A stretch of DNA of 64,000 bases, taken from Heliocybe sulcata. Lineage: Eukaryota > Basidiomycota > Agaricomycetes > Gloeophyllales > Gloeophyllaceae. The notes beneath the pieces are model-generated. The model worked only from the letters and a program-made list of their open reading frames with translations, was not told the DNA's origin and did not search any database. The position numbers and the translations under genes were made by a program. Where the stretch lies: contig ML213513.1 in the NCBI GenBank assembly GCA_004369045.1, positions 1,032,968-1,096,967 of the forward strand, read 5' to 3'. This document shows positions 16,918 to 55,776 of the stretch, one piece after another; the first letter of the stretch is position 1, and each line of letters begins with the position of its first letter.

Positions 16918-18713
16918 ATGCCACCCAAACGATCCCTCTCCGATGCCTCCGACGCGACTCCAGACAAACGGCCACGGCTCGAGACAACGTTGGGTCCGTG
17001 CGGATGCTTAGCCTTAATATGTGCCTCCCGTGGGCCGGAAGATGAAGAAGACGAGGAAGAGCATGCAGAAAAGGATGTTGAGAGCGACTATCCCAAAGTC
17101 TTCCACCCAGACGCTCGCGACCTCTTCCGCCTGCTAGACGTCGGTATCGATCATCTTCCTTACCAAGGAATTGAACTAACCTGAGATCTGGCATCGCAGA
17201 ACAAGAATACCAATGCCATGCGCGGCATGGAGGATAATGGAGTGGACTTCGAGAAGCGAGCCCAGACGGTAGACTGGATCATGCAGATGGGAGTCGCCTT
17301 GGAACTTTTGCCAGAGGCCTTGCATTTGGCGATCTGCGTTCTGGATGGGTTCCTCTCAAAGGAACATGACCAAGCTGAATCAGCGGATGCTGAGGCTGAC
17401 CGGGTCGACGACAGACTCCTTGGATGCGGTTGTTTGATGGTGGGATCCAAGATGGTCGGGGGAGCAGCCAAACCCCTCAGTGTGAGCAAACTACTTGCCT
17501 GCTGTGAGAAGACAGGTGCCGTGCTGTACGAGCCGGAAGAATGCATCATGATGGAGAAGAAAGTATTGATAGCCATCAGATGGGCCGCACGATACCTGAC
17601 GATCCAAGAGTGTCTTGATGGTCTCTACACCACGTACCAGCTCGAGGAGGAGAAACTCCAGCGGCTTTCCATCTTCCTCGGGCTCCTTACGACGATCTAC
17701 GTTGGATTTGTGGAATACCGAGTTTCCGTTGTGGCACATGGAGTGCTACTCCTTGCGTCGCGAATCCTGCAGTTGCCACTCCAGCTTTGCGAGGGAGCTG
17801 CGATGATGGCGGACGAGATTGCTTTCCAGTTGAAGGACTTCCTCTTGTGGGAACACTTCGAGATTAGGCCGGGGCTGCGTACAATGGACGCGAAGACATC
17901 AGAATTCTTGTTAAAATACATCTCGGGTGGGTTGATAATCTTGTTACTTGCGCCTTGACCTCTAACTGCTGTGCAGAGTGCAGAGCAGCCGGCGAAAGAT
18001 CGACGGATGACTCCAACGAGGAACAGTCACATGAAGCTGTAGCGGATTCCGAAGATGCGGTAGACAGCGTTGTCCAGCAGACTGGAAATCGGGAAAACTA
18101 CCATGATGAAGACTCTTCCTCCGCAGCGACCCCAGCGAACTCGCAGGCAGAATCTATGGACGACTCCCAGTCAACCACAAATTCACGTGCGAGTCGCGAA
18201 GGCGCCGCAGTCCCCAATAACGGCCCTCATGACTCTGACTCACGCAATGATACGGCGACTGAAGAATACAAGACAGAGGTGCCCAGAACAGTGGACGTCA
18301 CCTTGACAAGATATGTAAGCCGCGGGACCGAAACACCTCGCCTCGTCGCTCCGGTTGAGACACCTGCGGTTTGCCCCACTGTCATTTCGCTCTCAGGAGA
18401 GGAGAAGCGTCTTTTGCGCCAAGATGAAGAGCTATCGGACGCGCTGTCATCAGAGGTGGAGGTCGATGAGCGTCGGGGCGCTTCTGGTCAGAGCGGGGAA
18501 GAGGCTGCAAGGACTGCGCGGCATCGGGAGGTTGGAATTCAGGCGTCTTGGGTCGAAGTGCAAGACATAGTTGAACCACTGAAGAGGAGCGACAACAAGG
18601 AAGATGCCACTGGGAAGCCCATGCAGGAGCTTAGGCGCCATGGAGGTATCATCGCCGTCTCAGCAGCCATAGACGATGGGATGGGAGGCAGCAGCGAGTT
18701 AGCACTCACCTGA
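16918..18713 (+). CDS. Divergent cyclin-like protein 1, 561 aa
   Basis: Exons are 16918-17139, 17200-17926 and 17977-18713. The N-terminus is MPPKRS followed by an acidic stretch (EDEEDEEEHAE). A cyclin fold follows at about residues 82-200: KRAQTVDWIMQMGVALELLP, ALHLAICVLDGFLS and LMVGSK. A second fold-like part (YLTIQECLDGLYTTYQ, VVAHGVLLLASRILQLPLQL) runs to about residue 310. The remaining 250 residues are a disordered acidic, Ser/Thr-rich tail. Cyclins activate CDKs. Here the lysine of the usual KFEE motif is kept (GSK) but the acidic residues after it are not, and the MRAIL patch is replaced by KRAQT. CDK binding is therefore uncertain. The first intron (after codon 74, phase 0) matches the other three long genes of the cluster. 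Confidence 0.75.
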
Positions 18714-20702
18714 GCGCCCTCTATACGCAAACGACGTAGTAGATCTAATAGCCCTCCCCTGGTCCGTCGGATGTGCTTGGTTGTGGTGGGCGTGTCCATG
18801 GGAGCATGATTCGTGGCGGCGAATGGTAGACGCCCAGTCGCAAAGACCTAGTGATCGTGGATTAAGTACCAAATGTTGTGTTAGCATTCGAATGGGACTT
18901 CGTTGAGTCGGTCAAGACACTTTTCTCTCGTTCCAAAGCATGTAGCATGTGCAGGGAAGCAGTGGAAACGACGCTCGGCGCCTATTTAAGAGAAAAACCA
19001 CGGCTGTTGCCGAGACATGACCGCACATCTGATAGGCTCGTTGATCTACCACTCCCATTCCATTATTTGGGCACAAGACAGTAGCTGTTACGGTAATACT
19101 TTGCTATGACAGTAGAACGGTTATATGACTGCTCGCGCCAATACAACCGAGATGATTCAAATCGTCTGGCTGCACATCAGATAGACGTGAGTTAGCCTGT
19201 TAGCCATTCTTCAGACTTCCGGATCTTATATCGTGGCACTCCTGATTCTTGCGCCCTTTACAATTATGTGTCACTACTGGTATTGACACAATGTTTCACA
19301 GTATTGTGATCCGTGCACAACGGCTGTGGCTCACTGGCCCGTTGGCTGATCAAGCGCCTGATGTGCCACAGGGGCGTCACTTATCAGAACGACGCATCGG
19401 ACGCGCGATTACATTGGTCGCCTCCCTTTGCATTGGTCTCCCTCCCCCGCCCACTCGACATCCAGGAATTACTGTTCATCTGTTCACGTTCAATCTAGCA
19501 GCTCTTCCAGGAATACAGGACCCGTGGCTGTTGCACGCCGCCTCCCATATCGAAGGCACATCAGAATCGCGCTGAGCGTCATGGTCCACATTTATTATAG
19601 TGGCGAATCCGTTGAACGCGTAAAGCTCCATAAACAAGAGCGAGTCATCTCAGTCCTCGTGGAGGACAGCGCCGACTGATGGATGCTTTTCACCAGGCGG
19701 TCTCGCTGCCCTTGTACTCTAGACATGATGCACGTCCCCGTCGCCACCGATGAGTTCCACTGAATGAGTAGACAAAGTAAGACGTCTGCTTTGTGGCTCT
19801 GAAACGTGCTCACCATCGTCTCCCTGCTGTAGGAAGTCGGAGGTCCACTTGGAGAGGCGTTGTGGTATGGAGAAAGCGCTCTGTTTTAAGCGAGATAACT
19901 GTCACTCCCGTCATCCACAGTATGATCTTCTAACCACGATGTTAAGAGTGGTGGCTTAGATATTACACGGCAGTCTATCTCTGCAGGCGACCGTTGCTGT
20001 ATATGATGCTTGCTTATGACGCAGCCTATCTGGACCAGCCTCTCCGGGCTTACGTTCAATCAAATGTGAGTCCCGTTGCCGCTTTCTCTAAGTCCCGGAC
20101 ATGAATTGAAAGAGCAATCTGCGTGACTCTATTCTTCAGGAAGCATTATCTCCCACAGTATGCTGGTATATTTCTTAATATTCCAGGCGCAAGGAGCTTG
20201 TACACTTGCACTGTCTTCCTCTGACCCGGGTATACATGTCCAAAACCGGCTTGACGAATGAGCAAAACGCTCCGTCGGTGCCACCCTGAGTATCGCGTAG
20301 CCTGATCTCAAGATCTTATGCACATCCTGAGACTGGTAATGACCCATCTCAACCCAAGCGTCGCGTAAGGTAACTTATGAAGCCTTTTCTTTGCCATTGA
20401 ACGTGGGAGATAAGCGGTGGCAGCTGGAAATAATCAAACTGCCGGTCATTCCCCAGAAGCGGCGGTAGAAATAAAAGGAAATGATATCTAGCACTACATG
20501 TGCACATTCACTACTGTACAGCCGAATCATACAATGTTCAAACAACAGTCCCAGCCGTCCTACATATTTGATGACATAAGATATACTAGGAAGTAGCACT
20601 TCGGCCACGCCCGAGGTCTGGCTCTCTGCCTGCGACCATTGTCATTGTTCATCTCTGGCCACGCCAGGACCTCCCCACTCCCCACCACGTCTCATACTCG
20701 CA
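18714..20702. other. Long intergenic stretch
   Basis: Two kilobases with only short open frames on both strands. No family, RNA gene or clear repeat was recognised. Confidence 0.45.
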
Positions 20703-21847
20703 ATGAGCGACCATTCCTCTGACAACAAGCGTAGAAGGGAGGCTTCCCCTCCTCCGTCATCCAATCAAAAGCGGCGACTTGCCTCGGATTGTTGCTCAGA
20801 CGCGCTCTCATCGGCGTCGCCGTCAGTCGCTATTGACGAAAAGCACGAGGACTTTGAGCGACTCACAACGGACCGAAAGAACATGTTACATTATATGCTC
20901 AAGACGGAGGTTCGTACTCCATCGTTTGTGGCACGACCGGAGGGCTGAGGCCAGTCATCCTCCAGAGTAGATACGTCCGCACCAAAAACACAGTGACCAT
21001 GCATGCTACTCTCGACTTTCCGCTACGCCAGGCCGCAATTAATTATGCGTTTCAAATACACCGCAGACTCCAGCTAATGCCCGACGTCCTCTTCCTCGGC
21101 GTCAACCTCTTCGACCGGTTTCTCGCTTCCAAAACATGCCACCCGCACGAGCTTCCCCTGGTAATGGCTGCATCCATATGGATAGCAGCGCATTTCCTGC
21201 AACACGAGGACACGGAGCATACTAATGAGGACATCAACTTTTATTGCCACCGGGACGCGATCGTGCCCCTGCTTCCGGGCTGCACAAAGCGGCATCTGCT
21301 CGACATGAAGCGTGAAATCCTCCTGGCTCTCGATTACAGGCTTCATTGCCCCACTGTCTTAGATTTTATTGCCGTGCTAGGAGAGGCAAGGGATCAGGAT
21401 GAGGACGCCGAAGCGCTCACGATGTTCATAATCCAAATTACACTGTACAACTATGACTTTATCTCTATCCGTCCCTCGGCAATCGCCCTCGCCTCGTTCT
21501 ACCTCGCCGAAAGGATCTGCGGGAACATCAAGGCTTGCGCTTTATTTCTCACGGACGAGGCGAAGGAGGTCGTAAACGTGCTGGAACACTTCATGGAGCA
21601 CCATTTTGTGTACGCTGGTGAATGTCTGCCAGGATACTTGGTGGACAAGTTTAGCCATCCCGACTATCGCCGCGTGGCCGTTCTGGCTAGGCACTACTAT
21701 AAGAGGAGGTGCAGGGAGTTTAATAGATGCATCTCCATTGTACCTCTGCCGAGATGGGCAGTTCGTTCCTCGAAAGCGCTCGGTATGGAAGAGAGGGTAG
21801 CCAAGCCGGAACCGCAGGAAGTTGGTGGTGGGCACGAACGTACTTAA
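20703..21847 (+). CDS. Divergent B-type cyclin-like protein 2, 362 aa
   Basis: Exons are 20703-20909 and 20966-21847. After a basic, Ser-rich N-terminus (NKRRREASPPPSSNQKRRL) the first cyclin fold reads IHRRLQLMPDVLFLGVNLFDRFLA (about residues 100-123), then MAASIWIAAHF. The helix LDMKREILLALDYRLHCPT is the usual helix-5 block (ExxIL...L.....P.). The second fold reads RPSAIALASFYLAERICG (about 220-237). The pattern is closest to B-type cyclins. The lysine expected after IAA is His, and no KFEE-like acids follow, so CDK contact may be weak or lost. The intron after codon 69, phase 0, matches the paralogues. Cell-cycle control is the family role; the role here is open. Confidence 0.78.
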
Positions 21848-22266
21848 TCGGCTGTACGGGGTAAAGGAGACATTGAAGCTTGTGTGTTGTGGATGTATTA
21901 ATGCTTCGTATGTAACTGCGTATGTAAAAGTATATGTACTTCGAGTAGCTTGTAGAGTCTAGACTTCGGGTTCCGTGTATGCTTCTCGATCACATCTTTT
22001 CGAGACCATACTCTATATGCAACAAAGTGCCAGGAGCTCGCAATATTGTTGTGCTCGATTGGCTGAGCTGTGGCCAGGCGTTGGGGCGTTGGAGATATAT
22101 ACGACACGCGACACATCACGTGTCACCGTGATTCCCGCTAGCCGGACAGGTCACGATCACATGACACGAACCACGGCGTGTCGCAGCAACTCGCGTCTTC
22201 GTCCGCTCCTTGGGCCTTGGGCCACATCCTCCAAGTGCACCGGCGCTATCCGCCTACCAAGCCATC
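21848..22266. other. Intergenic stretch
   Basis: Short spacer between two same-strand genes of the cyclin-like cluster. Nothing was seen beyond the expected promoter. Confidence 0.45.
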
Positions 22267-22854
22267 ATGGATACGAGTGCCTTTTCAGGCATGCATCCCA
22301 TACTGGAAGAGCTCAACCGGATAGACCCATCCATCGACCGCCAGCTCCTCGAAGACGGCGTCGGCATCACCGGCCACAAATCCGCTGAAGGCTGGCTCCT
22401 CGACTACGCCACGCACGCAAAAGACACGTCCTACATAAAACGCGTAGCGGCAGTCCTAATCTCCTTCACATCGAACTACCACATCTTCCACCCCTGGCCG
22501 CCCGACATCATCGCTCTGGGCGCGCTCATGATGTCCAGGCACCTCTGCGGCGCGGGGCGGGGCCCGCCGATGAAGCAGGACGAGGAGGCGTTGGAGGTTA
22601 TGACGACGATTGATAGGACGCTTAGGAACGAGCATAGCTTGATGCCTGAGGAGGTGTATGAAGTGAATCCGAGGAGCAGCCATTGGGAGATGCTGTATCG
22701 CCTGGACGAGTTCTATGAGGATTGGAGAGACGAGCTGGAGCCTGTGCCGAGGACTTTGGAGATTTATAGGAGTGGGCCTACGTCTGCGGATTATAGATCT
22801 GGGAAGGCGAGGAGACCGGCTGTGACGCTTATGCACTTCCCGGATCGTATTTAG
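22267..22854 (+). CDS. Short protein resembling the C-terminal cyclin fold only, 195 aa
   Basis: Single exon with good codon use. At about residues 57-100 it reads YIKRVAAVLISFTSNYHIF, then PPDIIALGALMMSRHLCG. This follows the same order and spacing as the second fold of cyclin-like protein 2 (MFIIQITLYNYDFISIRPS, AIALASFYLAERICG). No first-fold motif precedes it. The C-terminal 80 residues (LMPEEVYEV, YRLDEFYEDWRDELEPVP) match the minus-strand gene at 28512-29171 in pattern. My reading is that both come from a cyclin-like ancestor that lost the CDK-binding first fold. A separate uncharacterised family is the alternative. Confidence 0.6.
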   Translation: MDTSAFSGMHPILEELNRIDPSIDRQLLEDGVGITGHKSAEGWLLDYATHAKDTSYIKRVAAVLISFTSNYHIFHPWPPDIIALGALMMSRHLCGAGRGPPMKQDEEALEVMTTIDRTLRNEHSLMPEEVYEVNPRSSHWEMLYRLDEFYEDWRDELEPVPRTLEIYRSGPTSADYRSGKARRPAVTLMHFPDRI

Positions 22855-23539
22855 TCGACTCGCGGTCAGTGGGTGTTTTCTCTGCACTTTATCGTGCAGC
22901 GTGCTCATAATCTTTTAGAGTGTGTGCTGCCACCAGGAGCATCTGCTCCTTTCCGTGGATTGTTCCATCCAAGGTTAGCGGCCATCTATCAGGTTCTGCC
23001 GGAACTGAGTGAATTGATCGTACATCTAACACTTTCAGATCGCTGTACGACATCCATTATGCTTCATCTGTATTGCGTCAAGATCCCCGCCGACGCTTTG
23101 AATTTCTCGTGAACACGTCTCGCTTGCTCTTGATCCAATTGCGTAGTCGTCTGCGTAGCTGTAGCCATCTCCCTGCCTATGTTGACATTTACTCTCGGAT
23201 CTCACTTGTATTATAATGTAGTGTGTACAATTCCTAGAGACCATGTCTGTACACGATGTGGCTCGCCATATACTTACCCGAAACAATCAAACCAAGTATC
23301 CACACAGGCATCATCTTATGTGAGCGCACGTTCAGGCAAGAGATTGAGTCAAAGACCGGTTATGACCAATTACACAACGGTAAATTACAGCAGACCAAAT
23401 ATGTCCAAGAAAAGAGTGTAGTACGACAGGAGTGGGGGAGAGCGTAGTTGCTCAAGTAATCCGGGTGCTCAGTCCTCGATAAATCCGCAGCGACAAATAG
23501 AAGTCGTAGTCCTCGTACACGGTACCGCCAAGCTCGTGT
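22855..23539. other. Convergent intergenic stretch
   Basis: Tail-to-tail spacer between the short cyclin-fold gene and a secreted-protein gene. Only short frames were seen. Confidence 0.45.
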
Positions 23540-24277
23540 CTAGTAAGAACCGGCCATATGAAGCGTGACAGCGTAGCAGCTGTCATGGTCGTAGGCATCG
23601 TTACCAGTCGTCGCATCATAGACGAGGATGTCCTTGGCAATGGTCGAGCTCGAGTTGGCGCTGGCGCTCTCGCGGCAGATGGAGAAGAGGTCCTCGTGCG
23701 TGTTCAGCGCAAGGATGGGCAGATCGTAGTGCGCGTTGCTGGTGCTTGGCTGTCAAGCCCGAAGTTAGAGATCTCAATGACAGTGAGGAACCGCAAGGGG
23801 ACGTACGATGGCGCAGAACACCTGCGCGGGGGTGGCCGGGGCGGAGCAGTTTCCGGAGAAGCTAACTGGTGCCCCAGCGTCCGCGCCGAGGGACATGGGC
23901 GCACAGTCGGGCGCGCTGGGCTCGTTCGCCCTCAGCGCTCCGTGGATGAGGGTGAAGTTCGGGAAGCTTCCGATGGTGCTGGGTTCAGTATCATAGGTCT
24001 GCATCTCTCCGCTCAACCAACCACTCGCCGTATAAGAAGGTAAGCAAGCACTCACCGCAACCCTGAATATCCCAGCGCCGGCCCCATCGCTCGCGGGGCT
24101 CAGCACGATCTGCGTCCCGACCGAGTCGGTGGAGGTGTTATGGGCCTCCAGCGTGAAGTTGTACGCCACGTCGTAGGCGGCGCCGCCGAGGCCGTCGCAC
24201 CATGCTCCGCTGGATTGGCGGGTTTTGAGGGACGCTGCGACGAGAGGTGCGGCTGCGAGTGCGAGGAGAGCGAACAT
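23540..24277 (-). CDS. Small secreted protein A, 207 aa
   Basis: Exons on the minus strand are 24277-24056, 23998-23807 and 23749-23540, all joined in phase 0. A signal peptide is clear (MFALLALAAAPLVAAS). The mature protein starts with GAWCDGLGGAAYDVAYNFTLEA. It has several N-glycosylation sites (NFT, NTS, NCS) and six cysteines after the signal peptide, and ends near DHDSCYAVTLHMAG. It is not a family I can name. The gene 0.6 kb upstream encodes a clear paralogue with the same three-exon plan. A secreted or wall-associated role is inferred from the signal peptide only. Confidence 0.78.
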
Positions 24278-24864
24278 GTTTGGGCGAGGAAGAAGGGTGA
24301 AGATGAAGATGGAGAGATGGAGGAAAGGATGATGGAGATGGAGATGGACAGAAGGATGAAGATGAAGCGTTGGAACGGATCAGAGCGAGCCGGTTAGGCG
24401 AGAACTTTATAGGCGATGGGTCGAAGGCGCCAAGAGTATCGGAGCGTTTACCTCATGATCACGCTCTGTCAACACGGTGCAGGTCATATTCGTGGAGGCG
24501 CACAAGTCCACGGGGTGAGTTGAATGGCGAACAGTTTCTGGTCAGAGGCAATAGAGTTACATACAAGCTTGCGTTAGACCATGGCGGTCGTTTTTGATGC
24601 CAGACACGTGGCAGCCATGACGACGTTGGGGTCACGCCCCACTTTCGCGGGTTCGTTCACAGATTTATATGTTTTATTCGAATGATGATGCACAACTCTA
24701 TCTCTACAGGAGGTAGCCGTATTGGAGCAGTTAAGTAGGGAAGTTTGAACGCAGAAGGATCAATATTGTCGGTCACTGGCAAGAGTCCATTGCTCGTAAT
24801 TGTCCTACACCGTACACCACCCTACGCGGACGCTTTCATTTTGACAACCGACTACTGCAAAGCG
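24278..24864. other. Intergenic stretch
   Basis: Spacer between the two secreted-protein paralogues. A TATA-like site for protein A lies inside it; the first 100 bases are rich in GA on the plus strand. Confidence 0.45.
24405..24412 (-). promoter_or_regulatory. TATA-like box upstream of secreted protein A
   Basis: CTATAAAG on the minus strand, about 130 bases before the start codon. The same octamer is found upstream of the paralogue, which supports it as a conserved promoter element. Confidence 0.4.
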
Positions 24865-25597
24865 CTAATAGTCGTAAATGAGGTGCAAAAGCACAGCGTA
24901 ACAAGAGTTATAATCGTAAAGCGAATTTTCGGAGCTGGCGTTGTAGATCAGGAGGTCGGCATTGCCACCATCCGTCTGGTGACATATGGAGAACTCGCTC
25001 AGATTGTTGTATAGAGCGAGTAGCGGGCGGCCTCCTTGCTCGGGATCAGTGTCCGCCTGCAGGGTGATCGTGAGCGGAGGTGTAGTTGTAGACGTGACGA
25101 ATACTCACTACTCCACAGTAAATCTGGGAGGCGTTGGTAGTGTCTGCGGTGAAGACAACTGGGCCCCCATCTTCGGTATCAACACCAACAGGGGATAAGG
25201 TGAGGTCTGTGGGGTAGTTCGCAACCAGTGTTCCGTGGTCGAGAGTGAAATTGGGCCAGATGCCCATGGTGTCGGGCTGACTGTGGTACGTCTATTCAAG
25301 GCACGATATTAGACGCAATAGCTCCTGAAGATCCGGTCAAGAAATACTGACAGCCACATTGTATATCGCTTCTCCCGACGAATTCTGACCTTGTGGGTTG
25401 AGGACCAAGGGAGCACCGGTCGTGTTTGCGTTCGGGAGAGTGGTGTTGACAGCAGTCAAGTAGAAGTTGTACGCAAGGTCATATGCGCCGCCTCCCAGGT
25501 CGTCACACCAGGATCCCTCAGACCGCTTTGGAAGTGAAGAAGGTAGCGACGAGGCGAGGCGAGCTGCGAACAGAAGGAAGAACGCGAATTGAAACAT
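24865..25597 (-). CDS. Small secreted protein B, 206 aa
   Basis: Exons on the minus strand are 25597-25352, 25291-25109 and 25056-24865, all phase 0. A signal peptide (MFQFAFFLLFAARLASS) leads into a possible dibasic processing site (PKRSEG), then WCDDLGGGAYDLAYNFYLTA. This lines up with protein A along its length: the shared blocks are WCD.LGG.AYD.AYNF, TM/IG.(W/F)PNFTL.HG.L.AN, and YD.(N/D)SCYAV.LH. N-glycosylation sites are frequent. Function is unknown. The two genes are a tandem duplication in the same orientation that has diverged well beyond simple copies. Confidence 0.78.
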
Positions 25598-28511
25598 CGT
25601 CGAGGTCGTCGTTAGCGGAGGAAATTATTCGCTGTCTTGGGTGACAAGTGAACTGCGCGTAACGGTCTTTATAGCCCTGCAGTTCAACATAATAGACTTG
25701 TCGAACACCGCCATAACGAACGGATGTCAATAGCCTGGCCTCGATCCAGCTCGGCGCTACCAAAGCCGTTAGACGTGCGTCACTGGAGTACCTTGCGCGA
25801 ATGCCATTCGATTAACATATCGCAGCGTGCAGCTCCCACTGTGCGATCACAATGGTATTGAAGAGACCATCGCGGGAGCGGAAGCTCCCAGCTGCAGACC
25901 AGGATGCGCGGCTCCAAACCGGCACTTGGGCGGGAGGACTGCCCGGAACAGCGCCACAACGCCACGCCGGCACCGCTCGCCGTGATTCGCTGTCGGCTTT
26001 TCCCGATGCTCTGTACGACGATTGGCGCAGACCTTGCTGTTTGAGTTCTTACTTTTAGGTTTCCGGGCGGTATTTGCCACCATAAACGTGCTTAGTGCGA
26101 CGATCTCTGACGCTGCTATGACTCGCCGAGCTCCTCAAGAATTGTCGTCTCGCCTGGATCTGAGCCAATTATCGCTCTCCTAATCGGTCGCCGTCCGCGT
26201 CGGGATGCTTTTCCTTCATCTCAAAAGGACTGCTTCACAGGCAGTATAATGGCTTTATCGATGCGAGCATGAGGGAGGTGGGACATAATCGCCGAGAAGG
26301 AAGAGTAGGAAGAACTAGGCCTCGGGCCTCAGCGGAACCTTCTAGTTCATTCATGCAGAGTCTTTGGATTGGAGTGAACGCCTGGTACCGAGGTACCTCC
26401 ACTGAGACGCGGCCACCGGAGGGCTTCACGTCATCCCGCGTTTATGTTCTTGGGGCTTCCATGCAGAGGTCTCGAGCAGCGATATGAACGCCTCGACATA
26501 CTCAAGGAAGACCATGGCCACTCAGTGTCAATCGGTCTGGATTGCTGCCTGAATATCGAATACGGGTTGGTAAAGTTCCACCGGCAATGATAGAAGCTCT
26601 TCCGACGGGGCCGACGGAGATACGCCGACAGGCAGACTATTAATGGTCTTGATGGCTGGCAACATTTGTAGATCGTGCGTCTGCACATCGCATCCCCTCT
26701 TCTCCTACATACATCGAAGGCGTATGCTCAATTCCAGGGTGCTAGAGTACCATGCGGTACGCATTCCACCGACACCTGTCTGTTCCATATCCACCCTAAC
26801 TGGCTACCTTTCGCCTAGTCGATATGTGCTACACCAGTATTCAGACGACCGGGGCCACGCCCAATTCTTTTTCTGAATGACTCTTGATTCAATCTGTCCA
26901 CTAATCAGCGCATTTCAAGTGGGCGAACTTATCCTCGCGCGGCTCGGGAAAAACACATTCTGCATCGTATCTTCCGTGTAGCGCTACCAGCTCAGCTCGC
27001 TTTTATACCCATAGGCATATGTGAGCGACACGACATCTTCCGATTTGTGCTCTGATCGACTGCAGCTCATTTTCCCTGACTATGTCGGCGTGTAACTGAC
27101 ACTGCAGAGATTACTTTCTGTGCAATCATCGCCGCGCAAGTACTGCTCGATTTCGGACGGTCCTCGGGGTGTAGCAGGAGCATCTTCAGGCGGCCGTATC
27201 AGTCTGGGAGAGTGCATCAGCCACGTAAGATGACGGTTCCTCGCTGAAGCAGCACGGACTTGTCATCTCGACAGCAGGTCGATTCTGATGGGGAAGAGGA
27301 ACGGAGCTTGGCATGCTCGACCCGGAAAATCCTCAGATTATCTACGCGTCTCCAGCATCCTTTCAGTTCCGCCGGTTGGTACAAATTTGAGTTAACATCC
27401 GCTCAAGCTCAAGAGCGGCGAACCCTTGCGAATGCATAGGATAACGCCCAAGGTACGATCGTGACTATTGGTTGGTCGGCCGAAAGTCTCATCCTGTTAC
27501 GTGTTGGTATGAACAGCCCGTTGTTCGTACGTAGAGCGTTGTGCAGATGTCAATAGAGGTGAACTGAATCCCTGATCTGCATCCAACTCCCGCTTACGCT
27601 CGTTCTTTAGGCTGATCTCATCTAGTCGCTTACAGAAAGCACCTTACGCCGAACAACGCATCTCAGCTCCTGTGACCTACCACTTCTCAGATCGTATCGG
27701 CGAAGTCCCTCTAAAAGATAGAACTCCATCTTGCGGGCCACCTTCGAATCGACCAGTTCGTATCTGCCATCGTATCAGTCATCCCTGCAAGCAGCTGTCG
27801 AGAGCCCCCGCGTCACTAAGCAGCGCATCATCTGAGCACTTGCACTTGGTCAGAGGTATGCGGAGGCCCCGATGCGCCATCGGTGTGGTAAGTGATGCCG
27901 TGCTTTGGTGCCACGACATGAACAACTTCATAAGCTGCCTTTCGCCAGCTAAGTACGTGTCTTGCAGGTCCTCGTCCTCGCTGATCTATGATCCAGGACT
28001 ATGAGGTTCACGGCGAAGAGTCTAGTCACCTGCCTGCCGAGTTGGTGTAACTGAGAGCCGTGTGTCCAGAGCGGACAGGTCTGGGACGTTGAAAGGCCAG
28101 GAAGCACGATGCAATGTATTCCGTAGGACATAGCAAATCTATTCTGGATCATGATACGAGAAAGAGAGATCCAAGCAACCTCGTACAAGCGTATTAGTGA
28201 ATAAGGAAGAGCAGTGTGAAATGTGAGCGATACAAGCACGATTATGAACGAAGAAACGAGAATGAGTGTGGAAGGCAGATGGTACAACATCGGTCTATAT
28301 ATATATATGTCCTACAGATAGCTCCCCGGGGCACTGTTGTCGACGTAATGAGGACAGGACACGTACAGAAGACAATGATGCTTACCATGCAAAGTTGAGG
28401 TCTTATTACAGCATATGAATCACGGTCGACGGATTGAAGCAGCGCGTGTAGCCTGTCACTCGCAAGGATAAGTATAACTACGATAGCCCATAAGCTAGAA
28501 GGGGCACACCT
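25598..28511. other. Long intergenic stretch with unassigned coding-like pieces
   Basis: Nearly 3 kb without an assignable gene. Weak coding-like pieces occur near 26430-26690 (-) and 27280-27360 (+), and a hydrophobic open frame at 27949-28290 (-). None was joined or identified. A short TA run lies near 28297-28306. Confidence 0.35.
25667..25675 (-). promoter_or_regulatory. TATA-like box upstream of secreted protein B
   Basis: GCTATAAAG on the minus strand, about 70 bases before the start codon. It shares CTATAAAG with the site upstream of secreted protein A. Confidence 0.45.
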
Positions 28512-29171
28512 TCAACACCTTGAATAATCATGCCGTCTGTTCCTCATATCCCTAGGCTCAAGGGGAACCCGCTCATACTCCTCCATAGTAAGGGGAAGCC
28601 TGTTCATAGACTTCCTCGAGTTTTTATAGAAATTGTCCACTTCTGACCATAGTATAGTGTAGTCCCACTCCTCCGGGAGACGGTAAGTGTCCATCTGGCA
28701 GAAATGGTCCAGGAGATGCATGGTAATAAGCCCAGTCTTCGTCTCCCCAAACGGTGTCCTCCCCTTCCCCATAATAAACCTCACGAGCATGATAGCTCCC
28801 ATGGCAATCTCTGCCTCCTTGAACATCTTCCAAATATCGCATTCCATGGAGTAGCGCTCGTCATAGAAGTAGAGAATGGTTCTTGCCATCCTTCTCTCAT
28901 CGTGCTCTGGTAGATTACCGGGCGCGGGATCGCGGTCCAAGCCAAGGTAATCACTAACGGCATCGTATAAGTTGGAAGAGATGCAGCCGGGTGAACACGA
29001 TCCGTCCAACTTGATGTCGTTCATCTTTTGTGCGAGTATTGAGGCGGGGTCGATCATGGTGAGCGCGAGGTTGCTCAGCTCTTCTGCTAACGAGAACTGG
29101 TCCGCCGGGTTTACGGCAAGGTCGAGGGAGCGGAGCTTTGCTGCCAATGAGGCCAGATCGGTGTTGCTCAT
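28512..29171 (-). CDS. Short protein resembling the C-terminal cyclin fold only, 219 aa
   Basis: Single exon. The N-terminal 60 residues are predicted helical (LASLAAKLRSLDLAVNPADQ). At about residues 93-140 it reads MARTILYFYDERYSMECDIW, then EAEIAMGAIMLVRFIMGKGR, matching the 22267-22854 protein (PPDIIALGALMMSRHLCGAGR) in position and spacing. Both continue with an acidic linker, LPEEWDYTILWSEVDNFYKN, and a basic end. The frame is open upstream of 29171, but the ATG before SNTDLAS sits best and gives a normal-looking N-terminus. It is inverted relative to its relative at 22 kb. Function is unknown. Confidence 0.6.
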   Translation of the reverse strand: MSNTDLASLAAKLRSLDLAVNPADQFSLAEELSNLALTMIDPASILAQKMNDIKLDGSCSPGCISSNLYDAVSDYLGLDRDPAPGNLPEHDERRMARTILYFYDERYSMECDIWKMFKEAEIAMGAIMLVRFIMGKGRTPFGETKTGLITMHLLDHFCQMDTYRLPEEWDYTILWSEVDNFYKNSRKSMNRLPLTMEEYERVPLEPRDMRNRRHDYSRC

Positions 29172-29888
29172 GATGAAAGGAGTTGGTTTTGAATGAGCTG
29201 AGGAGACTGGATGTGGCCAAGTGGTGGAAGCAGTGAGAGTGGCAATTGACAGCGGGGACAGCGCGGCGAATCGCACGCGCGACTCGTCACATGACCGTGC
29301 TGAGGTTCTCATCAAGCCACAGAATGACGGTATATCCTGCGATGACCTGAGCCATCGATTATCCCACTACAGTGATGTACATGTAGTCCTGCAGGGTGCA
29401 GTGTGCACTACACGCCATCTTTGCCTTGAGATGCTCACGGCGCGATGCCATCCTAACAGATGGCTCATAAATCGGTATGCGTCCCAATAACACGGGCTCC
29501 AGCCTTGATTATTATTTGATAAGTGATACAGTCCTCATACTGTAAGTCAACAGACTCGCTATACCTATGTCGCTGCATGCAGCCAACGCTTATACGGTCG
29601 CACTTGCTTCGCTCGCCCAAGGATGGTCACTTTGCAGCATCAAGCATGCCGCACTTAAGGAATATACATTGAATTCCTCGAGAAACACATGCTGGATCTA
29701 CTGCCGTAGTCTACCAAGCATCGTCAAACCTACCTGACATGAATACATTCGCAAGCGGACAGTACTACTTTACAATCATCAGTACTCTACGATATTCCGG
29801 TCCAATTACCATACTGCATCGACATCTATGAACTGATAATGTACCAGAGATACGGCAGAGCAATGAGGAATGTGTGAAGTGGAGGGAA
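29172..29888. other. Intergenic stretch
   Basis: Spacer between two minus-strand cyclin-like cluster genes. Nothing beyond promoter and 3' sequences was seen. Confidence 0.45.
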
Positions 29889-31231
29889 TTATGTCATGAT
29901 GCGGGCACGTCCAGCACGCAGCTCGAATTCCGTACAACTTTTAGCCCGCGAGAGCCTAATAGACGGCATGCGAGACTGGCAAGACGCACATCCGGTAGAG
30001 GGTGCGCAGCCAGAGCCCGAGGTGCAAGACGGCCTCGCGCTCCCTCCCACACGGGAGCTCCAGCTCGATGGAATCGCAGGAAGTGACTTCACCCTCATCC
30101 GCCGATGAGATGAATCGTCCTCCAACAGTTCGGAAGACACAGGATTAACTTCGGGCGCAGGATGTCCTCCGTCAGGTTCCACTCCAGTGGACGAATCGTC
30201 CGTGGTTGGGTCGATGTTAAGAACCTCGAGGCGATGCAGAGGTCCACCGTCTTCATAGGCCTCCCGAACAGTAAATGCAGCATTGTACCTGTTCGGCTGC
30301 GACCACTTGACGACGATGAACTTGACTGAGTCTTCCGACAGGCCGCGGAGCATGTCGTCAAAGGCGTAGAGGCATTGACAAACCTCTACAGGCTCCTCGG
30401 ATAAGTCCACCTCTCGACCGCATATCATTCGCGCCAGGATGAGCGCAGCTTTCGCTTTGCAAGACGGTAAGACGGAGATGAAGTTACGGACGGCCAGCGA
30501 AAGTTCCAGTATATATGAGGCCGGCTGCAAGATCTCCACGTCCTCATTCTTGTCAAACCAGAAGGATCTGAGCTGACTAAACGCATCAGGACGCTGGCAG
30601 CGCCAGTCCAGCGTCTGCAGGATCTGTTGCTCCTGATATTGGAAATGTTTCGAAGACCAGCTATTGGAGCAAGCATGCATCAAGTCTTTGATCGAAATCT
30701 CTTTCCAGAGGACTTCAGCGCTCTTGTTCGCAATCCAGAGCGCGGTAAATGCGACGGCGCGATAATGACGGAGTGCGACTCTTTTCCTTGCCATATAGCG
30801 GTTGAGGAGATCGACCGCTAGGAACAGCGTCTCGGAGCGGAGTTTCCACTCATGGTGCCATGCGACGAGGTTGTCGATCAAGGCAGGTCTATCAGACCAT
30901 TGGACTTCGTCCTGGTTTTGGTCGATTTCGTCGGCAACAGGCGTCAACGAGGGGTCAGCCTGAATGACAGACACGGTGAGTCGCGTCAAGAAAGAGTAGA
31001 CGTAGAGCATACCTCTAACTCTGACCGCCATTCTGCAATCTCTGCTCCGTACTCCATTTGTACCTTCACCCATTCGCCCAATAGCTCTTCTGGTTCCTCC
31101 TCCTCTTTCCCCTTCTCCTCCTCCAAGTCCTTTCTCTTGTCATCTTTCAGACGCTTCAGGATCTGCCTTACAACATACTCCTCCTCCTCCTCGTCCTCCC
31201 GTTTTCGCCTCAGGCAAGGATGAGTAGACAT
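29889..31231 (-). CDS. Divergent cyclin-like protein 3, 429 aa
   Basis: Exons on the minus strand are 31231-31013 and 30959-29889, joined in phase 0 after codon 73 as in the paralogues. The N-terminus is highly charged (KREDEEEEEYVVRQ, then EEEKGKEEEEPEELLGEW) and probably a coiled coil. The first cyclin fold reads LIDNLVAWHHEWKLRSETLF, LAVDLLNRYMARK, then AVAFTALWIANKSAE. The helix before the second fold reads EQQILQTLDWRCQRPDAF, and the second fold KAKAALILARMICG. The lysine of the KFEE position is kept (ANKSAE), with one acidic residue after it. The last 100 residues are rich in Ser, Pro and Arg. CDK partner unknown. Confidence 0.78.
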
Positions 31232-34200
31232 ATTGACGAGTACAGGGATGTTTAGAGGACGTGTGGGGGCAGCCACGAAGAAGGTAGCGAAATTCTGGAC
31301 GTCACAAGTGTGACGCTGCTCCTGCATCTCCCGCATGAGTATACTCCCACGATGCTCCCAACTCTCGGGGACGTATAACACTGTCCTCGACCATCTTATG
31401 CTGCGCTAGAGTATCTTTTCTTAAGGGCCACTTTCATGTCCTGTAGAGCCTTCAGCACAGTCTGCCACATTATTGTTCAAAACGCGGCGTACCTGGCCAC
31501 GCTCCTTCAACCTAGCAAGCGGCCGAATTGCAAGAGCATTTAGTCTGCCTAAACACGCAAGACTATCAGTCGGTGCGCAGATGAATAGCTCATGACAGTA
31601 TGACTTTAGACTCACTGAGCCAGTAGAACCCGTCTCGAGTCGATAAACGATATGAGCCACTCCGAGTGTCGTCTGCGGGAGGAGAGAAAGACGGGTATGT
31701 CAAAGAACGTCTCTTGTCTCATATGGTACGATGCCCTTTGCAGGTTGCTGGTGCCACTTCACGACGCCACTCCCATGTGCCACTTGTGTCTTGCACCGTG
31801 CCACTGATGGTACCGGAAATACTGCACAGCGTTAAGCGCGATGCCTCCTCAAGCTCGCCACTCACAGCTCCTACCGGTCTGAAAGAACTTCCTGCATGAT
31901 CATCGCCCGTCTACGACTGAACACCCATGTTTATAACCTCGCTCCGTCACGCACCTCTGGATCGTCTCCAGGAGCGCGTCTTGTGAGCTCGGCCGCTCGA
32001 GGCAAGAATCATACGCGCTCACATTGTTGCATGCAGCAGCTCCTCTGCCTGAAGACAACTCTCGTCAACGCGCGGCCGATCACTGGCATCCTCAAGCGTT
32101 CGGGAGCGGAGAGCGATGTATAGCCGCGACGTCAAGCTTGGGTCGCGAGGAGTTGATGCCGCTGTGGCACTCTGTCCTGAAGCCCTGCGTCGTTTACATG
32201 GGAAAAACGAGGATTTCTCCGATTGTTGTTATGTCCAGACAAGACAGTCGTCGAAGGATCGGAGGTGAGTAACGCGCAATTTCCGCTGTGATACAATGAC
32301 TGTAAATTGACGTCTATTGCTGAGCTAGGCGAGAAAGTGGAAGCTAAGCCAACGTACGGCGGAGCCACCTGTCTGACTCCTCATTCTTATGCGATGCCAT
32401 GGCGTTCTTCTTGGCAGGTAACGCAAGGTCGTTGACATAAGATTATAGTCCTTATGGCGTCCTCTGTTTGAACAGGACGCGGCCAAGTCGAGGACGATAC
32501 CGTCAGGGTAGTACGTGGCGTATGTAGTAGCCAGTGGAACATCGGTGACGCTAACGTTGTTTTCTAGGAATGGCATTCTCGCATCTGATGATGGGGACCG
32601 TGCTCAAATCGTGAGGAGAAAACCCGCAGGCTCCAAGCTCAGTTTGTCGGCGCTCGAACGCCTAGAGTATCAGAGCAGGATATAAGACACGAAGCAGACA
32701 AAGCCCGAATACGATTAACGGAGTGACAGCCTCCTGCTTCGTAGTAGAACCAGCGGGAAGTACTCCGATATTCGTCCTCGTGCTCTGAGGCAATCGCGAC
32801 AGGAAGGTAAGCGAGATAAATCAGAGCTCAGCATGTCTCTCACGCACTTTATAAAATGTGCACGGCACTTCGTCCGCACAGCTACCCTGTCACCACAAAC
32901 AGGCTGCTCTGGGCTGATCCAAATGACGAGAGCAACAGGAGTACATCGTACGAACCGCTGGCCCTCTGCCGTAGTCGGGGCCCGTCGACGGAGAACAATC
33001 CATTCACGCACAGCACCTCGATAACAACGTCCAGGACCGCAGAGGGCCAATAGAAGAGCGCCACAACGGTGAGCAAAGCTACGATAGATACTGTGACTCA
33101 ACTGAGACCATTCTTAGACCAATACGTTCCGTATCTCTCTCCCTCAGCATGGTACCGTGGCTCACGTTGTGCAGCAAAGTACCGATCCTCCAACAGAAGT
33201 CTTCAACGTTGCACAAGTGTTGCAGTTCAGCGAATGTGTTCGTCCGCTGCTCCCAGTCAGGCTTCTCCAGCAACCCAAGGCCAAGTCCAAGCTCACGAGC
33301 GCGCATGCCTATCAAGTCTACAGCAGTGGGAGCAGCAGGGACTTGAAAAGATGTCTCAGTCGTCCATGGCCAGCGGAAGAGCGTCGTGACGACAGCGTCG
33401 GGTAAAACCGGCGGAGTCCGAAGGTCCCGGGCGGGCGGCGCTTGCAAGTTGAGACTGTTGGATTCCCAGTGAGTCGCATGACAGACATTAGAGCGTAACA
33501 ATATTGCTCATGCTTTATGAAAGGATACAGTAGACGCACTCTGCCCAGGAAGAGGAAGTGTGCGTGCTGGTGGTTGGGTGTCTCTCGAACCTCTCCACTT
33601 GTCGCCGCGCCGCGCCAGCGATCAGGTCAGTATTCAGCGCAGGCTTTTCACGCTCCTGTCCTTTACTTATTTGAAGAACAGGCTAGGCCATAAGTAATCA
33701 TCAACAAGTAAATTTACGGCCAAGGAGACCGTAACGAGTGCAGGGAGTCCCGACATGCGTGTACCATTGGTTGAGATTCTTACTATGGTGACCCTGTCAC
33801 GATCGCTGTCCAATGAGAATGAGCAGAGACTATTGTGAACCTTGAAGGTAATTGCCAGCTCTGTGATTTACGGTTGTCGCTTGCACCCTCTGTCTTCCAC
33901 GACAGGGATGCTGAACAACATGCACGAAATGGATCACTCATCCGCGTTCAACGGTACGTACACTAGTGCTTGCTTGTGACATTCCAGTGATAATGGGAGC
34001 CAGTATAGACAGGCGAGCTCGGGTATACTCTTATCGTCGCAACAGGGTAACGGAGTAGATCTGAGGGCTGAACGCTCTTGGCATACCGGACTTGCTTTCG
34101 TAGGGACACACAGGCATTAGTGAGCGCCGTTGGGCTGCTTGACCTGCATGGTTCCGTCGAAAGACTCGCAAACTGTTTGTTGGGAAGGAATAGCTTCAAT

Positions 34201-34630
34201 ACCTTTCGTCTCCCGTTGTCTTATTTGCTCTGTTATAATCTTCTTTGCGCGTGGAGTCTATCTAGATGCTTATCCTTCCACGGCTCGTATTGTATAGAGG
34301 GCTCTGACGATGCTCTTTTACTAGTTACATCTCATATCATGCTCTCCGCATCCCGCCAGGTCGAGTGATGTCCGTAGCAACTGGAATATCTATCACAAAG
34401 ACTACTGACTGGTCCTATGCCATTCGTCTCTGTTAATGTGTAGCACAAGCGCATAGACCTCGAATGTTCTGAAGCGTGTGAATACGGCGAGGCATGGACC
34501 TCCGGTTCTCTCCTACTTTTTCCTTTCAACCCGCCACATCACCTTGCTTTCCGCCTTGAGGAATAGACATCTCTTCTACATCCACGCCTCGTTCTCAGTC
34601 CAGTCACACAGCTCTGTTTTTCAGGTGAAA
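31232..34630. other. Long intergenic stretch with unassigned open frames
   Basis: Over 3 kb without an assignable gene. A 140-codon minus-strand open frame at 33079-33501 is listed separately; its neighbourhood reads hydrophobic in places (about 32885-33076, minus). No repeat family was recognised. Confidence 0.35.
33079..33501 (-). CDS. Unrecognised open frame, possible exon
   Basis: A 140-codon open frame with a composition more protein-like than its surroundings (for example DWEQRTNTFAELQHLCNVED). No family is recognised and no consistent flanking exons were found. It may be a remnant or chance. Confidence 0.25.
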   Translation of the reverse strand: MLRSNVCHATHWESNSLNLQAPPARDLRTPPVLPDAVVTTLFRWPWTTETSFQVPAAPTAVDLIGMRARELGLGLGLLEKPDWEQRTNTFAELQHLCNVEDFCWRIGTLLHNVSHGTMLRERDTERIGLRMVSVESQYLS

Positions 34631-35994
34631 ATGCCATCAAAGAGGAGCCACCCCGATCCTGAATCGAACGCGGAGAGTCAACGCAATGTGCGGCAGCGAG
34701 ATATGAAAAAAGAAGAGCCACCAGTCTGCAGTTGCTACTCTGCCAGCTGTCACTCGTGGGTTTCTATGAATGACGATGAAAGGGAGGAGTACGAGGCGGA
34801 GAACAGAGAGTATCTACTAGATTTAGAAGTAAGTGACGGGATTTTTTCCATCAGATAACCGACTGATCCTATCCTCCAGGCCAGCAGCGCGCCAGAATAT
34901 TCAACTATGATGTCACTCACGAGAGCCGGCAAAATTGACTGGAAGCGTCGCAACGAGATGGTGGACGTTATTCTCTTGCTTGCTTCTAGGAAGCGGATGG
35001 GCCACGTCCCCCTACATCTGGCCATTAACTATCTAGATTGCATTCTCGCAAAAGTCGAGGTGAAGGGACACTTTTTCCTGCTCACAGCTCTAGCCTGTCT
35101 GTCGCTCGCGGCAAAGGTGCACCGAGACGACTGGCCTCTTCCCCAAACAAAAGAACAACTCAAAGACCCGAGGTTTCATCCCATTTTCACCACATTGGTG
35201 GACTTCAATAACCTTAACATGAAGAGATACGGGTCTATACCGTGCGATGAGAGGCTCCTGATGGTTATGGAGATAAAGGTCATGGGGAAGCTCGAATGGA
35301 AGACGAAGCACACGACGTCTGCGGAAACGCAGGCTGTCATCTTGGACCCCCGCCCGCAAATGCGTCTAGTCAGGAAGCAATACGCGGACTTTTTTGGCGT
35401 CTGCGCTCTCTTTTCTCTGAAACTCCTTACGCGCTACAATGCACGGGATAGAGCCAACGGAGCGGTTCTCCTCGCCAGCGAAGTAATGAGGATTCCTCTA
35501 GAGCTGTGCGACGGCTCTAAGGACGGCGCGCGTCGGTATGCCGATGCCTTGCTTGTGGAGCTGTCCAAAGGCCTCCATCAGCGGTCCGAGGTGTTGAATG
35601 TGACACATGAAGATGCGTTTATTATGCTCATTGATCATGGAATATGTACGTGAACATTTTCTCCTTGTGGTGTGTGCTGGGCGCTGACATTCGCCGTCTC
35701 GTACCAGTGAATCTTTATATTAAAAGTCAAATCCCGAAGACTCCTTTAAAGGAAGTCACACCGAAGCGGAAGATCCAGCCAGAACCCAAGCGCGTTCAGT
35801 CTTTTGGTCTTCTTGACGACTTTATTCGGAGGGAGGTGGCCGAGTATTGGGCCCGGCCTGTCACTATGCCAATGCCCAAGCCTACTCCGGAGGTGATAGA
35901 CTACCGCCCTCGATGGGATCTCCCCAAACCAAGACCGTGGCCTGGGATGGGTAGGGTCGACCTTACTCACAGAGAATGGATCCCTTTACGTTGA
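34631..35994 (+). CDS. Divergent cyclin-like protein 4, 416 aa
   Basis: Exons are 34631-34828, 34880-35645 and 35708-35994. Intron 1 (after codon 66, phase 0) and intron 2 (phase 1, near the end of the second fold) match cyclin-like protein 1. The N-terminus MPSKRS also matches MPPKRS of that protein. The first fold reads WKRRNEMVDVILLLASRKRM, LHLAINYLDCILAK and LTALACLSLAAKV. The second fold ends GAVLLASEVMRIPLELCDG, parallel to GVLLLASRILQLPLQLCEG in protein 1. A lysine-rich tail follows (PLKEVTPKRKIQPEPKRVQ). The KFEE position reads AAKVHRDD: lysine kept, acids displaced. CDK activation is uncertain. Confidence 0.77.
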
Positions 35995-43759: not shown

Positions 43760-44326
43760 AGAGCTGATTCGAGGTACGCTCTTCAGTCGCCTCGCCTTTG
43801 ATTTCTCAAAAAAACAGCAGTAGAACTGGCCCGTAACGTACCGCGCTGAATGGATCTGAAGAAAAGCCGCTGAGCTCGTATTTGCGGAACGTTGCCGAGG
43901 CTGCTTTGAATGCGCATGAAAGCCTTGGTCTGATTTGTGGTACGTCCTCCGCCTGTCTTCGTATCGTCTCTGAGATCTGGTTACTCAAAGCGACTTTAGT
44001 AGAACAGGTCCGTAACGCGGCGTGCTGAACGAATCCGAATTAGAGCAGCTGAGCTCCTATCTGCAGGACATTGCCGACGAGCGCTGCTTTGAACGCGTTT
44101 GTCGTACGTCCTCCAGCCGTCTTTGTATCGTCTCTGATCTCTCAAGGTAGCAACAGTAAAAGAGGTCCGTAATGCAGCGCGCTGAACGAACACCAATTAA
44201 GCCCCCCTATTTGCAGAACATTACCGACGCTGTTTTGAACGCGTTCATCTGATTTAAGGTAGGTCCTCTAGTGCTCCTTGTGACGTCTCTGATCTCTCAA
44301 AGCAACCGATAGAGAACAGGTCCATA
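43760..44326 (+). repeat. Degenerate tandem repeats of an F-box gene's promoter and start region
   Basis: Units of about 155-175 bases begin near 43796, 43970 and 44134. A fourth unit beginning near 44289 runs into the start of the F-box gene, and a partial unit lies at 43760-43795. Shared blocks in each are CT(C)TGATnTCTCAAA, CAGGTCCGTAA, GCGCTGAACGAA, ATTTGCAGAACATT, GCCGACG and GGTACGTCCTC. In the third unit the block around the start codon is kept as GTCCGTAATGCAG, close to GTCCATAATGCAA at the real start. Each unit is thus a copy of the promoter plus the first codons. Confidence 0.8.
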
Positions 44327-45923
44327 ATGCAAGCCGAGCGAAGACGGATTAGGCGGCAGATGGCCCATCACGAGCGCGAATTGGTCAAACTCAAGAGACA
44401 GTACAACGACCTGCTCCCCATCGCGCGTCTCCCTCAGGAACTCCTAACAGAGATCCTACTCATCGCATCGCACGGGTATTCGCGTCCCCCAACCTTTGGT
44501 TGGCTAGCGCTTACGCGCATCTGTCATCGCTGGCGTGAAGCTGCACTGGGCGCCCCTGCCTTTTGGTCCAGATTCGCGAGTGGTGAAAGGCTGAAGCGGA
44601 CGGGTCTAGCGTTCCACAGACTCATGCTTGGAAGGTCTGCGCAGTGCGACTTGTCGGTTTATCTGAGCATGCACTTGCACCACTTGGAACATGCAAAAGA
44701 GTTGTGCCTCGTGCTGGCCAACGAAACGCATCGCATCCGTGACTTGGAGCTAGCCAATTGCACGAAACGTGGACTCAAGTTCTTCGAGCAGGAATGCTGC
44801 TGGGACGTTTCGCTTCTGGAGGTTCGTAGTCTTTCCATCAGCAAGAAAGACGCCATTGACGAGCCTCTGCCATGGCTATCAAACTTTCCTACTTCTCGAC
44901 TCTGTCGACTTTCGACTTTCGGCATCTCTCTTAATGCGTGCCGACGTCTGTTTGTCCCGTCGATCACATCATTGGAGCTATCAGGGGAGCCTGGGTCCCC
45001 AATAGCTTCAATGACTGTGATGTGTTCCGTTCGCCGTGGTCTTCCTGCATTGTGCAATCTCAGAATTTTCCTGGGCCCTCAACCGGCGGGACGGAGGCCC
45101 TCTAGAACCAGTCGACCAGGACACAGACGCTCTGCACCAGCTACGTGAGTTATATGTCGACGAGAGCATGGAGGCCGCGGCAGCATTGACGGGCCATTTG
45201 GCGACACCGGACCATGTCGACATGAAGCTTATACTCGGTTGGCCAATCGTTGAATGGCGCAATAGCGAGGCTTGGAAATTCATCCTCGCCAGAATAGACA
45301 AAGTGGTCGCGGCGAATGGTCTAGACGCCGTTCGAGTTGACCAAGATTTCCCGTCGTACGGCTGGTCCCGCATAGAGATGTGGGCAGCCAGCGGACCCTC
45401 AGGTGTATATCCCGAAATACCCCCGCCAAAACTTGTTCTTGGATTTGCGACGGGACACATCCTCGTGTCCGAAGTCGCTGCCAATATCCCCTCGTTGAGC
45501 CGCGCTGTCCATCTCTCCATAACGGGATACTGGTACCACATTGCGGACACAAACAAGATAATGCAACACATGGCAAACGTGACCACACTTCACGTCTTCA
45601 ACCTCCCTTTGGTCTCACACCCGAGGACTTGCAACTATACTGTTTCGCCGCTGGTCGAGAACCTCATTCTGGAAGGAGATGTTGTGTTGGAAAACACACG
45701 GGAGGCAGTGCGAGATACCGTGCAGCGATATTTCGGATCCTGGAGGACAGGGAGCGGAAAGTTGCACAGTCTTCATATCCGTCAGACTGTGGACGTCAGC
45801 GAGGACGTCGTAGCTGGAATACAGGAATTGGCAGACAAGGTGACTTGGGATAGGCATGGACCGTATCAGCCACTACCGCTGGAGGATGATGACCAGGACG
45901 ACAACCCATCAGTCGGGCATTGA
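44327..45923 (+). CDS. F-box protein with a leucine-rich C-terminal part, 509 aa
   Basis: Exons are 44327-45038 and 45106-45923, with a 67-nt intron that moves the reading frame correctly. A basic coiled coil (AERRRIRRQMAHHERELVKL) leads into the F-box at about residues 32-80: IARLPQELLTEILLIASHG, then LTRICHRWREAALGAPAFWS. F-box proteins bind SKP1 and recruit targets to SCF ubiquitin ligases. The rest has irregular leucine-rich segments as in the basidiomycete F-box-like/LRR group, which is lineage-expanded with unknown targets. If the intron is not real, the gene would instead carry a frame break near 45040-45105. Its promoter region is tandemly repeated. Confidence 0.78.
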
Positions 45924-50883: not shown

Positions 50884-51391
50884 CGTCTTGAGTCGTGCAG
50901 ATAAATGTGATCTTGCAGATATAACAACAGACACACATAATCAATCCATAGCTGTTCTGCGTAGGAATGTGGTGTACCAGATTATCAGATAGTGCTTTCG
51001 AAATCGACATAGATAGTTGGCGGTCAACATAAATACGAAACAGAACAAAATGAGCAGTGCATCAATATTGATTGCTGTGAAGTGAGCAACGCCCGGGGCA
51101 GAAAACGGCAGCCCTTAGCGACTTCCCAAGCAAGCTGTGGCACGCTCTGTGGCCTCCCGCTTCTTCGCCACATCTTATTATGACGTCATAGTCTCACGGC
51201 AGTCGAGCCAGTCTTCATCGATTATCTTGATCATAAGTTACGGTTCTCGTCGTCGATTCGTCGCTGTAACTGTAAAGTCATTGGTATGCAGCGTTTGCGA
51301 ATAAACTCACCGCCACAGTAAGTAGTCATCTCTTGATTGATTATGGCTTATCCTCTTCGTGCTGCACAGGTCTACCCTCGAGTCGCCTGAT
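50884..51391. other. Intergenic stretch
   Basis: Promoter side of the next F-box gene. Nothing else was seen. Confidence 0.45.
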
Positions 51392-55405: not shown

Positions 55406-55776
55406 AGTGGCGCTGGAAAGGGACGAGCTCGAGTAGCTGGGACAGTTGCATGCAGTCGCGCTCGATAGAGCCGTACAAGGCCATGACCGTAGGAATATTC
55501 AACAAGGCCAGGAATAGCGCGAGGAACCATCGTGATGGACAAGATCGCAGCAATCCAGCGGGGAATGGTTGTGATTGTTGGGACTCTAATATTGGAAGAG
55601 CCTAAGATCTGCTATAAATTGAAACAGATTGTCAGCTGTCGAATGTAGTGCACCGCGACGTTTCAGCGACCTGACGAACGGAGCCGCCATAGCGGAATCG
55701 AACGTTCACATGACCAATCGATGATACATACATGCTGACAGTCCAGATATGCCCACAATATAGACGACGACGCACG

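Follow-up and report, generated by a model that had tools for sequence, protein, structure and literature searches.

The described systems closest to the genes considered here are the basidiomycete Cln1 cyclin and the B-type (Clb) cyclins. For Cryptococcus neoformans, one account (PMC8510536) gives three Cdc28-type cyclins in total and uses the yeast cln1 cln2 cln3 rescue assay. Expansion in fungi is also reported for the PCL (Pho85) cyclins (PMC10406608), which are a different subfamily with an older expansion. Here we analyse a window of 64,000 nucleotides of Heliocybe sulcata (contig ML213513.1, called C11 below, positions 1,032,968 to 1,096,967), in which four cyclin genes (c1-c4) and two half-size relatives (h1 and h2) lie at positions 16918-35994. 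A third half-size gene (h3) is found to the left of the window, and about 38 kb of C11 thus holds four two-lobed cyclins and three single-lobe genes. The locus resembles basidiomycete Cln1 (e.g. that of C. neoformans, PMC8510536) in its Cyclin_N domain, in a phase-0 intron site and in that the C-terminal lobe (C-lobe) of Cln1 is matched by the half-size genes. Unlike C. neoformans, H. sulcata adds a cluster of four very divergent copies and single-lobe forms.

Results

A cluster of cyclin genes

A profile search of the genome gave at least 13 Cyclin_N matches. Four of the 13 listed matches (c1-c4) are packed in about 18 kb, while the random expectation for such a quadruple, with 13 random sites, is 5e-7. 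Of the other nine listed matches, as judged by eye, one is a Cln1-type gene (contig C1) and one a Clb gene (C12). C14 carries a further Clb gene together with, at a distance of 12 kb, a second Clb2-like gene; C22 has a Cln1-like relic interrupted by stops, and the remaining four (C2, C5, C10 and C22) are of other types. The names Cln1, Clb1 and Clb2 for the cyclins of this genome were assigned here from sequence, and the comparators are listed in Table 1.

All four long genes pass the curated Pfam cut-off for Cyclin_N (PF00134, 23 bits), with 58.7, 62.5, 80.1 and 45.3 bits for c1 to c4, respectively. For Cyclin_C (PF02984, 22 bits), c2 and c3 reach 42.4 and 27.0 bits, c1 stops 0.2 bits short of the cut-off at 21.8, and c4 has no match. 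Despite this, c4 lines up with c1 without gaps across the second-lobe region, with 18 of 70 residues identical. Identity to c3 is 28% for c2, 20% for c1 and 17% for c4. The first matches of c3 and c2 in the PDB are cyclins B1 and A2, which is a further difference from the PCL cyclins. An AlphaFold model of c4 has a mean predicted local distance difference test score (pLDDT) of 47; a cyclin match was found for it, which is in part an echo of the input because the alignment supplied to the model included ordinary cyclins.

The spliced models of c1-c4 equal public proteins letter for letter (Table 1), and individually the four are already annotated as cyclins in public data. In our literature searches, which covered listings and selected passages, we found neither the cluster nor the half-size family described. 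The preliminary description of this DNA, made from its letters alone, had reported four clustered cyclins with two half-size relatives, and this is confirmed by Pfam, by the public proteins and by the shuffle tests given below. The cyclin fold that it had read in these genes was recovered by Pfam in c1-c4 and not in h1 and h2. All six window frames (c1-c4, h1 and h2) are intact at high divergence, with a chance of 5e-11 to 5.5e-4 each of being free of stops, and the observed/expected ratio of CpG dinucleotides in the cluster is normal (0.80-1.06). When the window was searched for repeats pointing to recent duplication, a single pair was found, within other genes. The stretches upstream of the same six genes were also searched for the MluI and Swi4/6 cell-cycle boxes (MCB/SCB): they hold no ACGCGT and one CRCGAAA, before c4. 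One of each occurs in the 1 kb ahead of Cln1 exon 2.

Introns

Intron 1 interrupts c1-c4 after codons 74, 69, 73 and 66, respectively, in phase 0 and directly following an acidic residue. The same site recurs in all five other A/B/Cln-type loci examined, in one of them unproven. In Cln1, Clb1, Clb2 and the C22 relic, a frame shift or stop between the exons demands an intron there; the second Clb2-like gene has GTACGT as a donor at the site, yet its frame is open throughout, so that its intron is unproven. A conserved R lies 19-23 residues from intron 1 in c1-c4 and, with exon starts set by eye, 20 residues from it in Cln1, Clb1 and Clb2. Because the other A/B/Cln-type loci have the same site, intron 1 is ancestral. 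Judged from sequence, it marks membership of the A/B/Cln family and not descent of c1-c4 from one another. The preliminary description had placed the introns and their phases correctly, as models identical to the public proteins attest; its argument that the common first intron proves the four to be paralogues was rejected, since Cln1, Clb1, Clb2 and the C22 relic have the site in common.

The telling intron, by its placement, is intron 2. It is present in c1 and c4, in phase 1 and exactly 55 complete codons past a common LLAS motif in both, and the ungapped 70-residue stretch described above leads up to it. Cln1 is without it, its second exon continuing through. This equal spacing upholds the link between c1 and c4 that had been drawn from the letters, and intron 2 marks the two as a pair, in agreement with the tree.

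Kinase-contact and docking sites

In cyclins, the charged pair taken as most important for the kinase consists of the KFEE lysine (K) and an E downstream of it, and MRAIL-W is the hydrophobic substrate-docking patch. We compared these sites with those of cyclin B1. Both the KYEE lysine and the E further downstream are retained by c1, c3 and c4; c2 has H and K, respectively, in their place. All four proteins have an altered MRAIL-W patch and changed KFEE letters, as the preliminary description had noted. Since MRAIL-W is altered, c1-c4 were not filed as A- or B-type cyclins. The genome's own Cln1 has MRPCL and KFED where B cyclins have MRAIL and KYEE, and F for W; like Cln1-type cyclins, c3 has an ALW(L/I)A stretch and RP replacing the RA of MRAIL. 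An altered MRAIL therefore tells little with regard to G1-type cyclins. We rejected the changes in KFEE and MRAIL as a sign of lost binding to cyclin-dependent kinases (CDKs), because Cln1 is altered too and the K and E are kept in c1, c3 and c4, which could still be kinase-binding cyclins. The earlier idea that the proteins no longer bind CDKs is not supported for these three. CDK binding has likely been lost in c2 and in the single-lobe proteins, and c2, with both charged contacts gone, is probably a pseudo-cyclin.

Relation to Cln1 and to the B-type cyclins

The nearest relative of c3 elsewhere in its own genome is Cln1 (30% identity, 110 bits), ahead of Clb2 at 79 bits. For c1 it is also Cln1 (37 bits), and a search with c4 finds c1 only, at 21.6 bits. 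The Clb cyclins (C12 and C14) share the fold and the intron 1 site with c1-c4, but they score below Cln1 for c1 and c3 (and equal to it for c2) and are set apart in the tree. For c3 and c1, the A- and B-type cyclins named at the outset were thus less apt comparators than Cln1, from which we read both genes as likely descended. For the c1-c4 family as a whole, there is a weak to moderate case for its being nearer to Cln1 than to the A/B types.

Two further loci touch on these comparators. The relic on C22 is 38% identical to Cln1 and has three in-frame TGA codons and a CpG ratio of 0.20, compared with about 1 elsewhere; it is seemingly a copy that has been silenced and mutated, in a stretch depleted of CpG. 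The second Clb2-like gene on C14 is diverging fast and lies on the opposite strand to Clb2; its K is kept and its E contact has become Q.

Half-size single-lobe genes

The likeness of h1-h3 to Cln1 is confined to the C-terminal lobe. In BLASTP, h1 matches residues 106-199 of Cln1 exon 2 at 51.2 bits with 32 of 97 residues identical (best of 200 shuffles 22.3), and h2 matches residues 142-199 at 36.2 bits (200-shuffle maximum 24.6). For all three, the scores are 36-51 bits within exon 2 residues 106-213, compared with shuffle maxima of 22-25. A chance likeness to cyclins was rejected, as the scores exceed those of 200 shuffles. Pfam gave no cyclin match for any of the three (no match of any kind for h1 or h2; for h3, one cEGF match at chance level), and because they have no Cyclin_N we term them cyclin-derived rather than cyclins. 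A model of h2 built from an alignment of half-size proteins only has a mean pLDDT of 61.6, and cyclin-fold chains rank first in its second-look alignment.

Relatives were found in Neolentinus lepideus: P0005 is 48% identical to h2 over 149 aa and P0004 is 55% identical to h3. Both belong to the same single-lobe family and carry the public name 'hypothetical protein'; of eight cyclins tried, Cln1 is the best match of P0004 and P0005, at 42.4 and 41.6 bits. No relatives of c1-c4 or h1 were found there among 6,489, 7,996 and 7,992 scored candidates, which is weak evidence because the scored candidates were restricted to exact-word sharers. The preliminary description spoke of related polypore genomes; H. 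sulcata belongs to the Gloeophyllales.

Table 1. Positions of the genes, introns and neighbouring frames. Positions are those of the window unless a contig is named.
Feature	Position	Strand	Structure or remark	Length (aa)	Public protein
c1	16918..18713	+	exons 16918-17139, 17200-17926, 17977-18713 (including stop)	561	P0007
c2	20703..21847	+	exons 20703-20909, 20966-21847	362	P0009
c3	29889..31231	-	exons 31231-31013, 30959-29889; of c1-c4 closest to Cln1	429	P0008
c4	34631..35994	+	exons 34631-34828, 34880-35645, 35708-35994; most divergent	416	P0006
h1	22267..22854	+	419 bp downstream of c2, same strand	195	
h2	28512..29171	-	717 bp downstream of c3, same strand	219	
h3	C11:1030778-1031392 + small last exon		2.2 kb left of window; alone, 18.4 kb from c1		
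Intron 1 of c1	17140..17199	+	phase 0; GTCGGT..TCGCAG (unusual donor GTCGGT)		
Intron 1 of c2	20910-20965	+	phase 0		
Intron 1 of c3	31012-30960	-	phase 0		
Intron 1 of c4	34829-34879	+	phase 0		
Intron 2 of c1	17927..17976	+	phase 1		
Intron 2 of c4	35646-35707	+	phase 1; counterpart of intron 2 of c1		
Cln1	C1:2503089-2504174		Cln1-type comparator		
Clb gene	C12:545867-546388		comparator		
Clb gene	C14:623920-624459		comparator		
Second Clb2-like gene	C14:611300-611836		12 kb from Clb2		
Cln1-like relic	C22:195492-196244		three in-frame TGA		
Adjoining open frames	23774-24379; 25337-25624	-; -	between cyclin genes		
F-box-like frames	44258-45148; 51341-52207; 53660-55498	+; +; -	right part of window		
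Stanniocalcin-like frame	56683-57270	-			

Other features of the window

Between the cyclin genes, two adjoining open frames have signal-peptide-like starts and share a WCD-LGG-AYD-AYNF stretch (54 nt, 80% alike), with no Pfam matches. Three F-box-like open frames lie farther right, the first of them below the Pfam cut-off (21.1 compared with 24.3 bits). Another open frame scores 22.7 bits for Stanniocalcin against a cut-off of 23, which is odd in a fungus; it is perhaps a cysteine-rich secreted protein. The right end of C11 is reached 7 kb beyond the window and carries no telomere repeats (no TTAGGG and one CCCTAA in the last 10 kb).

Discussion

The homology of these genes, their structure and clustering, and the likeness of h1-h3 to the C-lobe alone of Cln1 are direct observations. 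To explain them we propose, with about even confidence, a local and fast-diverging Cln1-related cluster, in which c1, c3 and c4 would be Cdk1-binding G1-type cyclins, c2 a probable pseudo-cyclin and h1-h3 single-lobe derivatives. The genes c1-c4 would stem from Cln1, and c1, c3 and c4 would still dock a Cdk1/Cdc28-type kinase via the kept K and E. Without the B-type docking patch, these three may direct the kinase toward different substrates or stages as specialised G1-type cyclins. The single-lobe proteins, which are without the main kinase-contact lobe, would, if active, probably be decoys or adaptors competing for the partner surface of the Cln1 C-lobe.

A number of results weigh against this proposal. 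In the searches, c2 is tied between Clb1 (60.8 bits) and Cln1 (59.7 bits), and c4 was not recovered when the genome was searched with Cln1. The tree has 12 rows (six Clb/cyclin B, c1-c4 and two Cln-like, namely Cln1 and, at 45% identity to it, the unnamed protein P0010) and 200 bootstrap trees. The branch that splits the Clb rows from all others (84/91, unstarred) does no more than that and shows no Cln1 descent; c3 is grouped with Cln (67/43), and c2 is placed somewhat nearer to Clb (63/60). The pairing of c1 and c4 (90/92) is a meeting of two long branches, possibly a false join, and the terminal branches of c1-c4 measure 1.9-3.0 changes per site. The four form a single group in 1% of the bootstrap trees; a single clade is not rejected by the approximately unbiased test (p-AU 0.122). 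For the half-size family, Foldseek on the h2 model gave 53 matches at E <= 10 and none at E <= 0.001, no PDB sequence was matched at E <= 1 when the half-size profile served as query, and profile comparison with cyclins reached 43.7% probability, at the correct place. Also, the half-size genes are no closer to the adjoining cyclin than to Cln1.

Very long branches, the lost contacts of c2, the absence of an entire lobe in h1-h3 and the dead Cln1-like copy on C22, with its stops and low CpG, would also be expected if the genes were relaxed duplicates drifting toward loss and the half-size genes truncated remains. We consider this rather unlikely: the six window frames are intact at high divergence, the GT-AG introns yield full-length products, and decay is made less likely by these open frames, by the normal CpG of the cluster and by the conservation of the h2 and h3 relatives in another genus. 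That the proteins have left CDKs altogether for other partners, as the preliminary description suggested, appears unlikely. The changed MRAIL and KFEE letters in all four, the loss of both charged contacts in c2 and the missing N-terminal lobe of the single-lobe proteins speak for it, whereas c1, c3 and c4 keep the K and E, MRAIL and KFEE are missing from the normal Cln1 too, and by the Pfam scores the N-terminal lobe is better conserved than the C-lobe. The positions of h1 and h2, each of which closely follows a full-size cyclin gene of its own strand, would suit split cyclins, in which a single-lobe protein joins its two-lobed neighbour (c2-h1, c3-h2) to replace or supplement the C-lobe; as Cyclin_C is matched by c2 and c3 themselves and h3 is isolated, this is very improbable.

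Within the proposed Cln1-related cluster, a more specific idea can be put forward tentatively: the Gloeophyllaceae may maintain working single-lobe 'hemicyclins', which would consist of the G1-cyclin C-lobe only, the kinase-binding lobe being lost, and would work in trans, as decoys for or partners of Cln1-Cdk1, alongside diverging full-size G1 cyclins. The findings suggest that this wood-decay mushroom has a family of cell-cycle regulators that is local and evolves fast. If this is true, the cluster and its C-lobe-only forms would amount to a natural experiment that separates the parts of a G1 cyclin needed for kinase binding from those needed for targeting.

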